A stretch of DNA of 64,000 nucleotides. Source: Alcanivorax sp. DSM 26293 (GTDB lineage Bacteria; Pseudomonadota; Gammaproteobacteria; Pseudomonadales; Alcanivoracaceae). Each line of letters opens with the position of its first letter. Positions within the stretch are counted from its first letter, which is position 1. The stretch spans positions 124,001 through 188,000 of the forward strand of contig NZ_FNUM01000004.1 in the NCBI RefSeq assembly GCF_900107995.1, given 5' to 3'. Shown in pieces: positions 13,319-63,336 of the stretch. Made by a program: the position numbers and the translations under genes. The notes beneath the pieces were generated by a model. It ran no database searches. It saw nothing but the letters and a program-made list of their open reading frames with translations, and was not told where the DNA came from.

Positions 13319-13469
13319 CAGGAGCGCCGCTTGAGGCGCGAAACAAGCGAAGCGAGTAACGAGTTTCGAGTAACGAGAAGCGAGACGCAAAACCGGTTGT
13401 GCTTTTCGCTTCTCGTTACTCGCAACTCGCAACTCGAAACTGCTATCCCTCCTCAAGCGGCGCCCCTAC
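13319..13469. repeat. heptamer-armed inverted repeat inside REP-like palindrome (element A)
   Basis: The outer arms are REP-like: GGAGCGCCGCTTGAGG at 13321-13336 pairs with CCTCAAGCGGCGCCCC around 13451-13466. Inside lie five 7-bp units at 13351-13385 (for example AGCGAGT, AACGAGT) and, in inverted orientation, five units at 13407-13441 (for example CGTTACT, CGCAACT). A 21-bp core separates them. The whole would form a nested hairpin between the AraC gene and the convergent crotonase gene. Confidence 0.85.
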
Positions 13470-13507
13470 AAAACACGGACTTCGCAGAAAATATTCCGGG
13501 CGCCCTG

Positions 13508-14374
13508 TTAACCAAGCTCCGGCTCATGCCAGAAATCGAACTGCTGCGGAATATCCGCCATCGCCGTTTCGAAACGCGGCTCGCGTTTTTCCAGGAAGGA
13601 GGTAAAGCCGTCGCGACCGTCCCAGAATTCATTGGACCAGTAGATCATTTTTGACTCCACCGCATGGGCCTGCATGGGGTGGGCAAAGTTGGGATTGCGC
13701 CACAGCATCTGCTTGGCCAGGGCCGCCGCCACCGGGGAGCTCTTGGCGATCAGCTTGCGGGCAATGCAGCGCGCCACGTCCACCACTTCACCCTTGTCAT
13801 GGGCACTGTGGAACAGCCCCGCGGCCACGCCTTCCTCGGCCATGAAGATGTCACCGCTGATCACCCATTCCATGGCTTTCTGGATGCCCACCACCCGCGG
13901 CAAAAACCAGGAGGAACAGGCTTCCGGGGTCAACCCCCGCTGGGTAAAGACAAAGCCGATCTTGCTGTTGGCCGCCACCAGACGAATGTCCATGGGCAGG
14001 GTCATGGTGATCCCCACGCCAACGGCGGCGCCATTGATCGCACCGATCACCGGCTTGCGACAGTTGTAGATGGCCAGGGACACTTCGCCACCGGAATCAC
14101 GAATCTGCTCCAGGGGCGGGTCCATGCCCTCGGCCTCATCGTAGCCAAACACATTGCCGCCCTCTTCCGGCTGCATTTCCATGCCGGCACAGAACACCTT
14201 GCCGGCACCGGTCACGATCACCGCGCGCACTGCGTCATTGCGGTCCGCTTCAGCAAAGGCATGGACCAGCTCATCCTTCATGCGCAGGGTAAAAGCGTTC
14301 AGCCGATCGGGACGGTTGAGGGTAATGGTAAGAATCTGTTCATCCAGATCGGTGGAAATATGCTGGTAATCCAT
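13508..14374 (-). CDS. enoyl-CoA hydratase/isomerase family protein (crotonase)
   Basis: The product is 288 residues. Crotonase features are FCAGMEM (CoA-binding/oxyanion region), KPVIGAINGAAVGVGITMTLPMD (second oxyanion segment) and FTQRGLTPEACSSWFLPRVVG, where the Glu in TPEA fits the catalytic hydratase position. It should act on an acyl-CoA in fatty acid or side-chain degradation. The 3'-neighbour on the same strand is an AraC regulator 13 bp upstream of its start, so the two are probably cotranscribed. The exact reaction is open. Confidence 0.85.
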   Translation of the reverse strand: MDYQHISTDLDEQILTITLNRPDRLNAFTLRMKDELVHAFAEADRNDAVRAVIVTGAGKVFCAGMEMQPEEGGNVFGYDEAEGMDPPLEQIRDSGGEVSLAIYNCRKPVIGAINGAAVGVGITMTLPMDIRLVAANSKIGFVFTQRGLTPEACSSWFLPRVVGIQKAMEWVISGDIFMAEEGVAAGLFHSAHDKGEVVDVARCIARKLIAKSSPVAAALAKQMLWRNPNFAHPMQAHAVESKMIYWSNEFWDGRDGFTSFLEKREPRFETAMADIPQQFDFWHEPELG

Positions 14375-14387
14375 GGAGCCTCCATCG

Positions 14388-60581: not shown

Positions 60582-60762
60582 GCCAACTGAACCCATGCCT
60601 TCAGCGTGGAGCAATGGCATGAAAATCCGTCGTCAAAAGGCATTCCCGGGAGCAACACCGCATCAAGGAATATCATCGACTGAAAACCGTAGTGCCGCGT
60701 GGCAGGGGCTTGCCTCCGGCGCCGCGCTGAAATCACGGGTTCGGGTCTAATTCGGAGGGGAT

Positions 60763-63159
60763 ATGGGCAACAACAAGAACAACAACAAACGCGCCGACGT
60801 CAGCGTCTTCAAACCACTGATGCCATTACTGATTGCAACCCTGGTAGCGATCCTGGTGGCAGGGGGAGCCACCTGGTTCTATCAGACCAGGGTGGCCGAA
60901 GCGGCACAACAGCAAGACAACGCCAGCCAGCTTGCACAGTCCATTGCCAAGCTGACACACAACCATATCCAGCACTATCAGACGCAGCTGTCGTTACTGG
61001 CCAGCCGTAACGATGTGGACCAGGCGCTGTCCGACGACACCGTTGCCGAGTTCAACGCCCGCCATCACCAGTGGGTTCCGGATGCCAACCTTCAGCTGGT
61101 GCCCCGCCGGGGCGCAAATACCGACGATTTCAGCTATACCGCCCAGGAACTGCTCAAGGAAGTGCGGCTTGGTCAGTCCCCCGGCCCGGTGATCATTGCC
61201 GGCCAGCCCCCGACCCTGATTCTGGTGAAAGCCACGCGGATGCAAAATGGCGCCCTGCTGCTGCAACTACCCCTCAGCAACCTGGCCAGCCTTCTGCAAG
61301 ACCTGGCCCCCGTCGGCAGCCAGTTGCAAGTCCAGTTCGGCGGCAGCAACCTGTTCAATCAGCCCGGCAGCAACACCGGTGCCAGTGTGGACACCCGAGT
61401 CGGCCCCGTCTCGGTGACGCTCACATTGCCGCCCACCGAAAGCAATCTGATGGTGGTCAGTACCCTGGTTGTGGCCCTGGGCGTGGTACTGCTGCTACTT
61501 GGCACGCTGGTGGTCAACCGCCTGATGGCCCGCTTCCTCAAGCAGGATTGCGCGGAACTGGTCCGTTACTGCGACGAACTGGCCCGCCAACCCGGTGTCA
61601 GCGCCCGCAACCATTTTCACTTCCCCCTGTTCGCCACGGTCAATGACGCCCAGGCGCGCATGGCCGGCAAACTCCGCAAACGTGGCGGCCCGCATCGGCC
61701 GGCAGCCCAACGGCAATCCGAGGATCTGGTCGTCGTGGAAGAAAGCGACGACGGCATTCTGCTGATGGATGAGGAACAGGGCGAAGCCCTGCCAGACAGT
61801 ATCTTCCGCGCCTATGACATCCGCGGTGTGGCCGGCGATACCCTTACCGCCCAGGGCGTCTATCTGCTCGGCCGCGCCATCGGCAGTGAAGCTGGCGAGG
61901 CTGGCCAACAGACCGTGCTGGTAGCCCGGGACGGACGCCTGTCCAGCCCGGAGCTGAGCCGATCCCTGATCAAGGGCCTGCTGGAATCCGGCCGCGATGT
62001 GATCAATCTGGGCCTGGTGCCCACCCCGGTGCTTTACTACGCCACCGAAGTACTGGAAACCCGAAGCGGCATCATGCTGACCGGCAGCCATAACCCCGCC
62101 AGCCACAATGGTCTGAAAATCGTTATCAACGGCGATACCCTCTATGGTGATCGCATCACCGCCCTTCAGGAGCGCATCCGCAACAAGGCCTTCAGCGAGG
62201 GCAAAGGGCGCGAGGAAGAACGCGATATCACTGACCGCTACCTGACCGATGTGACCAGCGATATCGTTCTGGCACGCCCACTGAAGATCGCCATCGACTG
62301 CGGCAACGGTGCCGGCGGGGAACTGGCGCCACAGCTGTTCAAGCAACTGGGCTGTGAGGTAACGCCGCTGTACACAGAGATCGACGGCAACTTCCCCAAT
62401 CATGCCCCCGACCCGGGCAACCCGGATAACCTCGCCGACCTGATCCGCATCGTGCAACAGGAAAACCTGGACCTTGGCCTTGCCTTCGACGGTGACGCCG
62501 ACCGGGTCGCCGTGGTCACCAACAGCGGCGAAATCATCTGGCCAGACCGCCTGTTGATGTTGTTCGCCAAAGATCTTCTGGGACGCAGCCCCGGCGCCGA
62601 CATCCTGTTCGACGTCAAATGCAGCCGGGCCCTGCCGGCCATCATCCGCAAGAACGGTGGCCGCCCCATGATGTACAAAACCGGCCACTCCCTGATCAAG
62701 GCAAAAATGAAGGAAAGCGGCGCGCCCCTGGCTGGCGAGATCAGCGGCCATATCTTCTTCGCCGACCGCTGGTTCGGCTGTGATGATGGCCTGTACGCTG
62801 GCGCCCGTCTGCTGGAAATCCTGTCCCTTCAGGATGACAGTGCCGGCCAGGTGTTCGATGGCCTGAAGACCGGTCTCACCACTCCGGCCCTGTACATTGA
62901 TGTGAGCGAGGAGAACAAATTTGCCCTGGTGGACGCACTGACCGCCCGCGCCGAACACTTTACCGGCGGCCGTCCCACCACCATTGACGGCTTGCGGGTG
63001 GACTTCCCGGATGGCTGGGGCCTGGTGCGCGCCTCCAACACGACGCCTTCATTGGTAGCCCGCTTTGAAGGCCGCGACGAAGACGCCCTGGAAAGGGTCA
63101 AGGAGCAGTTCCGCAAACATCTGCAGGCTGTGGATGACACCCTGAAATTACCGTTTTGA
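60763..63159 (+). CDS. algC: phosphomannomutase/phosphoglucomutase AlgC with N-terminal membrane domain
   Basis: The product is 798 residues. The ATG at 60763 has GGAGGGG upstream. Residues 19-44 and about 230-256 are membrane helices around a periplasmic region of about 185 residues, followed by a linker. The mutase starts near 345 (FRAYDIRGVAGDTL). The catalytic Ser is at 442 (TGSHNPASHNG) and the metal loop at 576-580 (DGDADR). AlgC makes mannose- and glucose-1-phosphate for surface polysaccharides. Short cytoplasmic AlgC is about 460 residues. A long membrane-anchored form is also annotated in some pseudomonads. The periplasmic part could be a sensor. Confidence 0.92.
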   Translation: MGNNKNNNKRADVSVFKPLMPLLIATLVAILVAGGATWFYQTRVAEAAQQQDNASQLAQSIAKLTHNHIQHYQTQLSLLASRNDVDQALSDDTVAEFNARHHQWVPDANLQLVPRRGANTDDFSYTAQELLKEVRLGQSPGPVIIAGQPPTLILVKATRMQNGALLLQLPLSNLASLLQDLAPVGSQLQVQFGGSNLFNQPGSNTGASVDTRVGPVSVTLTLPPTESNLMVVSTLVVALGVVLLLLGTLVVNRLMARFLKQDCAELVRYCDELARQPGVSARNHFHFPLFATVNDAQARMAGKLRKRGGPHRPAAQRQSEDLVVVEESDDGILLMDEEQGEALPDSIFRAYDIRGVAGDTLTAQGVYLLGRAIGSEAGEAGQQTVLVARDGRLSSPELSRSLIKGLLESGRDVINLGLVPTPVLYYATEVLETRSGIMLTGSHNPASHNGLKIVINGDTLYGDRITALQERIRNKAFSEGKGREEERDITDRYLTDVTSDIVLARPLKIAIDCGNGAGGELAPQLFKQLGCEVTPLYTEIDGNFPNHAPDPGNPDNLADLIRIVQQENLDLGLAFDGDADRVAVVTNSGEIIWPDRLLMLFAKDLLGRSPGADILFDVKCSRALPAIIRKNGGRPMMYKTGHSLIKAKMKESGAPLAGEISGHIFFADRWFGCDDGLYAGARLLEILSLQDDSAGQVFDGLKTGLTTPALYIDVSEENKFALVDALTARAEHFTGGRPTTIDGLRVDFPDGWGLVRASNTTPSLVARFEGRDEDALERVKEQFRKHLQAVDDTLKLPF

Positions 63160-63180
63160 GTTAGAATCAAGCCGTCGAGG

Positions 63181-63336
63181 AGTTGAAAGTTCAAAGTTGA
63201 AAAGCGCGGGCACGGCGTTTCGTATTCGGACAGGCCCTGCCAGCGTTTCCACCAAGCACAAAACGCGGAGCAAAATATTTACCGGTTAGCGTGGTGCTGT
63301 CTTCGCGTTTCAACTTTGCGCTTTAAACTTTCAACT
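63181..63336. repeat. heptamer-armed inverted repeat (element G)
   Basis: Left arm units at 63181-63201 (AGTTGAA, AGTTCAA, AGTTGAA). Right arm at 63304-63336 (CGCGTTTCAACT and inverted units such as TTTAAACT). The core includes ACGCGGAGCAAAATATTTACC, here quoted in part, a diverged form of the element C core. It lies between algC and argB and ends 31 bp before the argB ATG. Confidence 0.85.

Follow-up and report, generated by a model that had tools for sequence, protein, structure and literature searches.

Dispersed palindromic elements with inverted heptamer arms in Alcanivorax: an unusual variety of small mobile-like repeat

Miniature inverted-repeat transposable elements (MITEs) are small, carry terminal inverted repeats and target duplications and have an autonomous partner, and bidirectional intrinsic terminators set a GC-rich stem, bordered by A and T tracts, between convergently transcribed genes. 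Here, we describe a family of intergenic elements, encountered seven times (elements A to G) in a stretch of 64,000 nucleotides (hereafter, the window) from the 3.7 Mb genome of Alcanivorax sp. DSM 26293 (the host genome; contig NZ_FNUM01000004.1, positions 124,001 to 188,000), in which short arrays of tandem 7-bp units (heptamers) form inverted arms on either side of a core. Like MITEs, these elements have terminal inverted repeats, are small and apparently noncoding, and show similar cores at unrelated loci; unlike MITEs, the type of core depends on the arrangement of the neighboring genes. Like bidirectional terminators, they can place a GC-rich stem with A/T tracts between convergent genes; unlike them, the predicted hairpin is the center of a fixed, dispersed, and invertible module with heptamer arms.

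REPINs and GTAG-tagged doublets of repetitive extragenic palindromic (REP) sequences (PMC3116915, PMC3733652) resemble our elements in being short intergenic palindromes with conserved inverted ends, hairpin potential, a less conserved spacer of conserved length, and dispersed copies, and elements A and B are nested in such pairs. The heptamer elements differ in that their ends are tandem heptamers of several unit types (which we call dialects), and elements C to G lack the GTAG REP at their ends. Compensatory changes are reported to be common in REPINs, whereas the spacers of the heptamer elements show no excess complementarity. In the Beggiatoaceae, TAACTGA heptamers likewise form 7-bp intergenic tandem units, sometimes mixed with related 7-mers, but they are reported to be direct repeats that for the most part lie immediately ahead of start codons, 169 sets being direct and one inverted (PMC4679880); the elements described here are inverted pairs, often around a terminator-like core. 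Invertons share with our elements the presence of DNA between inverted repeats in both orientations, but no promoter switch is shown at our inverted sites, and the orientations differ between species and not within a culture. We did not recognize the elements in any open-access description (subscription journals lay outside the coverage), and they are an unusual variety of small mobile-like bacterial palindromes, the new aspects being shared cores, core inversion, and a joint difference of dialect in both arms.

We hold with about even confidence that these elements are an old, slowly dispersing REPIN/MITE-like family, that the host uses the members between convergent genes as putative two-way terminators, and that the arms recombine. 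Each element of the main type has two arms, usually of four tandem heptamers, that read inward from the flanking genes; further in come a CGCG box and a fixed-length spacer, and a hairpin forms the center. About five of the seven positions of each unit would be read by a protein, either a mobilizing enzyme or a DNA-binding protein of the host. Members between convergent genes would serve as terminators in both directions, and recombination between the two arms of one element may produce inversion, gain and loss of heptamers, and homogenization.

The 7-bp period itself is specific. In 464 kb from 21 sequences, arrays of at least four AG or CT units number 27 and 31, respectively, at a period of 7 bp, against 0 to 2 each at periods of 5, 6, 8, 9, and 10 bp; as 20 of the 21 sequences were picked for containing pattern matches, the density of arrays is inflated, while the comparison between periods is unbiased. 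A scan for inverted arrays that is blind to the class of unit returned 49 arrays of period 7 in 803 kb of the genus, set against 0, 0, 1, 0, 2, 0, 0, and 0 at periods of 4, 5, 6, 8, 9, 10, 11, and 12 bp, and the 1.44 Mb covering 80 HemW loci in other lineages gave a single inverted array of period 7. A 23-base AGTKAAY-type pattern (up to two mismatches) matches the host genome 158 times, compared to 13 times for the reversed pattern. The spacing also persists in related copies, a point on which the initial annotation had staked its claim of a family: the AGTKRAY pattern (up to one mismatch) occurs in 16 of 17 genomes of the genus, with up to 429 overlapping hits, although just two inexact hits fall in G005 (G- and L-prefixed numbers are our own handles), where another dialect takes over. 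Among 20 other genomes of the family and order, four have hits, at most two each. The reversed AGTKRAY control gives up to 44 hits (in the host genome) and, in G005, 18 against two for the real pattern; this control is not independent, because, when read in reverse, it corresponds to a rotated AGTTGAC unit.

Side by side with these arrays, we also observed a perfect AGTTGAA array of 12 units that starts at a stop codon (L027:1657-1740), a long CT-N5 array of mixed heptamers with no obvious partner around L161 1480-1600 in G379 (another gammaproteobacterium), and, at the L025:18158 (G003/G006) and L015:6785 (G001/G003) sites, inverted arrays with a period of about 9 inside REP-like pairs. On reading, the latter consist of CACAGAG plus two variable bases, and thus of a constant word plus two variable bases as in the heptamers.

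The anatomy of the main type was established on 44 AGTKRAY-family elements with distinct cores, of which 27 are from the host genome and the others, which include orthologues, from relatives. Typically, four heptamers make up a 28-bp arm; next come a CGCG box, about 37 bp of spacer, and a terminator-like hairpin, after which the order is repeated in mirror image. After the arm stands ARC, then one to three bases, then CGCG, and many cores share CGCG boxes as well as a AAGAGGCCGCGCCC...GGGCGCGGCCTCTT stem. Stems were located by regular expression in 28 of the 44 elements (16 are without a recognized stem), and in 25 of these 28 the left and right spacers, which average 37.5 and 37.4 nt, differ in length by at most 3 nt. 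For one whole element, one RNA strand is predicted to fold as a single long hairpin.

The relation of the elements to genes was examined for the 27 host-genome AGTKRAY-family members, with genes from our own caller. The core has a folding z-score of −2.2 or below in 16/16 convergent, 1/7 co-directional, and 0/4 divergent arrangements (p = 6e-5 for convergent against the rest). In 31 of 32 convergent cases, the arm starts at −23 to +6 bp relative to the stop codon, and 21 of the 39 gene 3′ ends have their stop codon within an arm. Whether the neighboring genes are convergent, divergent, or co-directional, an arm is found at either edge of the intergenic region. In host-genome stretches chosen for hits, 19 of 50 convergent intergenic regions of 60–600 bp hold the module (2 of 5 in the window alone), which may make it a major source of gene punctuation in the genus. 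Judging from predicted folding, the core is often a likely two-way transcription stop, and the role of transcription barrier, one of those initially suggested for the elements, is likely for the convergent ones. We also considered whether the 7-bp period serves to stop translation in three frames. All three inward frames are closed in 58 of 88 AGTKRAY-family arms and all outward frames in 1 of 88 (17% when shuffled), although the 88 cases are not independent because the arms are built of the same units, and AGC-NN-CA units contain no inward stop; such stops are a possible side benefit at most.

The mobile hairpins suggested by the initial annotation find support in the intergenic position, the dispersed design, and the similar cores at unrelated loci. 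In a set of 40 loci chosen for an exact match of both arms, 18 of 756 pairs without matching flanks have spacer identities above 0.70, reaching 0.82, whereas 500 shuffles gave a mean of 0.50 and a maximum of 0.64. Within G004, L227 of the AATKAAT dialect has an identity of 0.79 to L229 and 0.77 to L231 (L229 against L231 is not among the matches listed, all above 0.70), and thus copies at unrelated loci are present alongside terminal inverted repeats. For three dialects, identical 23- to 28-mers turn up at numerous sites, in 11, 8, and 15 of the 17 genomes, and a small sample of arms no more than 2 of 28 bases off a common 28-mer comprises 22 arms, 14 of them exact, in three dialects. As in REPINs, the ends are better conserved than the spacer, whose length is itself conserved; this is seen in the overlapping orthologous pairs discussed below and in the arms that deviate from the common 28-mer by at most two bases.

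The two arms of an element had been described as mutually complementary, with pairing maintained while the sequence drifts. The first part holds at the level of the unit type: among 62 AG-period-7 pairs, taken with no similarity filter and with orthologues counted in, both arms could be classified in 48, and these are of the same class in 48/48 (one arm was unclassified in 12 pairs, and both in two), which rules out independent drift of each arm. Inside a class, however, there is no further matching, as the arms of one element are no better matched to each other than to those of other elements by permutation (AGTKAAY, n = 20, p = 0.60; AGTKGAY, n = 8, p = 0.91; AG-N3-CG, n = 10, p = 0.22; AGC-NN-CA, n = 7, p = 0.18; AGTT-N-AA, with n = 3, was outside this test). 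The spacers likewise show no complementarity beyond permutation (n = 26, p = 0.92), such that changes compensating for one another to keep a hairpin leave no excess of arm or spacer matching (p from 0.18 to 0.92), and hairpin pairing as a selected property is rejected both at the unit level and in the spacers. In 16 overlapping orthologous pairs of the same dialect, changes affect 25 of 635 constant unit positions, 20 of 255 variable positions, and 117 of 1607 non-arm positions, and at a duplicated locus in G324 the only differences between the aligned arms are at the two variable positions of the unit. Taken together, the lack of pairing within a class, the constraint on constant positions, and the G324 arms fit recognition of the unit sequence better than specific pairing.

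Such recognition could also arise if the arms were inverted multimeric operators that insulate neighboring transcription units and are kept by selection on putative protein binding. The constant positions, which change roughly half as often as variable and non-arm ones, are consistent with this, as are the fixed spacing, the arms at both intergenic edges in all three gene arrangements, and the sharing of same-dialect arms without specific pairing. The fixed spacing could, however, also be inherited, and the presence of several dialects per genome, differing by species at one site, would call for several binders or a promiscuous one; we therefore regard protein-binding arrays as an improbable explanation of the whole.

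Orthologous sites reveal how the dialects change. The L015:11422 site carries AGTKGAY in G000, AATKGAK in G003, AATKAAT in G006, and AGTKAAY in G001. Of 54 elements at orthologous sites, 45 have the same label on both arms, eight are tied or mixed, and one is unlabeled; as the detector behind these counts demands resemblance between the arms, the unfiltered test of 62 pairs is the fairer one. Both arms thus tend to change dialect together between species. At one site in G008 and G011, the order of the units is kept and the core is related, while position 2 (G/A) and position 7 (C/T) differ in most units of both arms, and whole replacement is therefore insufficient as the sole cause of dialect change. 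In 333 orthologue comparisons, elements are present on both sides in 37 (one of these being a masked stretch mistaken for an element), in the host only in 27, in the relative only in 11, and in neither in 258. One element could be followed by its flank into 16 of the 17 genomes, and a heptamer element stands there in 12 of the 16; in the remaining four, there is a REP-type palindrome in G003 and G007 and a short remnant in G000, with G015 not resolved. Replacement of whole elements occurs as well: at L024:7623, where G001 and G006 retain an AGTKAAY element, its left half has given way to a REP-type element. At a divergent site (L205 19962 to L206 93, compared with L028 8833), we further observed many AATKAAT units in both arms in G006 and mostly AGTKAAY in G000.

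These differences also bear on two other readings. The elements could be self-organizing satellites, in which polymerase slippage extends a palindrome near a gene end by 7 bp at a time, with no mobility or dedicated binder, and in which symmetry is kept by template switching or quasi-palindrome correction between the arms. Orthologous arms that differ by whole heptamers (at the element F site in G001, and by two extra units in G016), the perfect 12-unit AGTTGAA array, the dialect difference between G008 and G011 in both arms with related core and unchanged unit order, and the G324 arms differing only at the two variable positions all agree with such a process. We nevertheless consider it unlikely, given that exact 23- to 28-mers of three dialects recur across genomes, that cores are common to unrelated loci and the geometry is fixed, and that within a dialect an element's arms are no more alike than arms across elements. 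Alternatively, the arms could be dedicated sites of recombination or rewriting, where a cellular system flips cores and overwrites both arms in the current dialect of the species. We find this quite doubtful; if true, an arm would be copied without its neighbors, and the genome would hold invertible two-way terminators on a genomic scale, with ends evolving in concert.

Inversion of the core is observed between species. In G014 and G016, 156-bp flanks are 99% identical, and the 105-base core is identical only when one of the two is flipped; the left arm is the same in both, which places the exchange in the inner units. The 102 orthologous pairs, drawn from 89 elements, comprise 21 that share an orientation, 12 that are inverted (10 strongly), and 69 that are uninformative. 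Inversion thus affects 12 of 33 informative pairs, and of 16 sites, 12 are informative and 4 show a strong inversion. At one of the inversion sites, G006 and G008 are inverted relative to each other, and, as both are single-contig assemblies, draft fragmentation alone cannot explain the inversion. The arms could be sites of a dedicated recombinase that flips the cores, and the unchanged left arms of G014 and G016, with exchange in the inner units, as well as the 4/12 inverted informative sites, agree with such an inverton system. However, inverted repeats of this size can be inverted via general recombination or replication slippage, and most convergent cores are near-symmetrical, so that flipping would change little; moreover, both orientations are observed between species only. 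We thus deem a dedicated inverton system very unlikely, and, in our preferred reading of a dispersing family with recombining arms, the inversions would be a product of exchange between the two arms of an element.

An associated Y1 transposase of the REP-associated (RAYT) kind had also been put forward as something to look for. There are 60 Y1 matches in 16 of the 17 genomes, and we fetched 20 loci, covering 22 of these matches, and scanned all 20 for arms. REP cores of the form GTAGGAGC lie within 800 bp of Y1 in 14 of the 20 loci, AGC-NN-CA arms lie 0.9–1.05 kb from Y1 in two, and one locus has an AG-N3-CG arm 255 bp from Y1, inside a REP pair. No main-type arms stand beside the 22 Y1 genes, and a RAYT as the mobilizer of main-type arms is unsupported at these 20 loci; no mobilizing enzyme was found in the Y1 flanks examined, no search aimed at recombinases having been made. 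GTAG-tagged inverted REP ends form the outer parts of A and B only and were not seen at C to G. With the GTAG, RAYT, and compensatory-change tests having failed as far as they could be taken, we do not file the elements as REPINs, although they work like REPINs. We also noted, at L024:9851-9934, a palindrome of about 82 bp with at least dozens of near-copies in G001, G003, and G006, which is presumably a REPIN.

An exact main-type search of 249 genomes of the phylum gave hits in four, with 158 in the host genome and 1, 1, and 2 in the others, and in a search for plasmid relatives the first query had a single match, of 32 bases, while the second had no match. The CAAGC-NN unit occurs in 6 of 369 genomes of the class, with 54 hits in G324, which belongs to another family. 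In 80 kb of G324 (stretches chosen for hits), 8 of 45 intergenic regions hold an inverted array, namely 8 of 30 co-directional, 0 of 10 divergent, and 0 of 5 convergent regions. At the 80 HemW loci, AG period-7 arrays account for four rows against 37 for GC arrays (among the 12 of 37 GC rows listed, mostly GC-rich matches at the 0.75 threshold), and, since the GC control outnumbers AG, the case for the four AG rows outside the genus comes from reading them rather than from the count. By such reading, Pseudomonas guryensis and P. jinjuensis have similar arrays where the hemW match starts or immediately upstream of that point. Together with the abundance of CAAGC-NN in G324, this suggests that a recognition system that has so far escaped notice may be widespread.

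Several observations weigh against the reading of a dispersing family whose convergent members terminate transcription. With regard to dispersal, flanks viewed by eye show no consistent target-site duplication and no clean empty site, and no autonomous copy was seen by eye among the exact-arm hits in the 17 genomes or among solo arms, in a non-exhaustive survey; nor do AGTKRAY-family arms occur in the flanks of the 20 Y1 loci. The loci compared for shared cores were preselected for exact arms, and in an earlier sample the best core identity between unrelated loci was 0.78. Furthermore, the 26-bp spacers beside near-identical arms are no more alike than shuffled ones, which simple copying followed by uniform decay would not give, and which indicates that the arms either outlast their neighbors or are renewed faster. 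The overlap of the orthologous pairs in the constraint test makes its Fisher p of 0.003 optimistic. With regard to termination, perfect stems alone, present in 5/16 convergent, 2/7 co-directional, and 0/4 divergent elements, are not significantly associated with gene arrangement (p = 0.53), the folding z-score, which tolerates mismatches, having separated the arrangements where the count of perfect stems did not. The type of core tracks gene arrangement, which a random inserter would show only after selection, and the lack of arrays in convergent regions of G324, set against their presence in co-directional ones, means that a terminator role may not be general. Even so, a mobile-like repeat, a probable terminator, core inversion, and concerted change of units can here be followed at one site across a genus.

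All seven elements of the window were read at the positions first proposed, and the paired arrays or inverted arms were also recovered mechanically: a detector using 25-bp arm windows found six, missing D, which a laxer detector caught. The notion of one shared design stands insofar as the elements are intergenic, dispersed, and built on several unit types; in A and B, the heptamers ride inside REP pairs of a known kind, and much of the outer palindrome is REP rather than heptamer. The cores, initially given as 13–100 bp, measure 27–117 bp, B, C, and D have degenerate right arms, and the window contains no Rfam match at the gathering score.

Element A (13319..13469) is an inverted GTAG-type REP pair (about 13319-13341 and 13449-13469) around AG-N3-CG arms at 13355-13384 and 13412-13441, with a 27-bp core, between convergent genes. 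Element B (27857..28018), between co-directional genes, is a REP pair with a degenerate right REP that encloses AG-N3-CG arms (the left at 27889-27911, the degenerate right one reaching to about 27960); its orthologue in G003 has the REP pair and no heptamers. Element C (33590..33752) has AGC-NN-CA arms between convergent genes, the left arm beginning at the stop codon of the 32874-33590 gene. At this site, G001, G013, and G015 were seen to carry about 750–780 bp of different sequence instead, possibly a gene. Element D (37551..37697) combines AGC-NN-CA arms with CGCG boxes and a GC-rich hairpin core and lies between the co-directional genes 36956-37546 and 37718-38305, which we take to be metW and rdgB; another unit type is read at this site in G001/G003 and in G013.

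Elements E (39513..39640; arms 39513-39542 and 39611-39640) and F (43630..43756; arms 43630-43664 and 43724-43753) are members of the main AGTKRAY-type family, with AGTKAAY arms around cores without a strong hairpin, and both lie between divergent genes; the right arm of F stops 3 bp short of a start codon. Element G (63181..63338) has AGTT-N-AA arms between co-directional genes, and its site in G001 holds a short palindrome only, probably a collapsed remnant. Two further palindromes were observed in the window. A perfect GTAG-type REP pair at 29763-29843 has 27-bp arms that are 100% complementary and no heptamers, the GTAGGAGC sites near Y1 genes in 14 of 20 loci being of this kind, and a 33-bp inverted repeat at 6129-6207 is 97% complementary, its outer end being similar to a sequence from G324.

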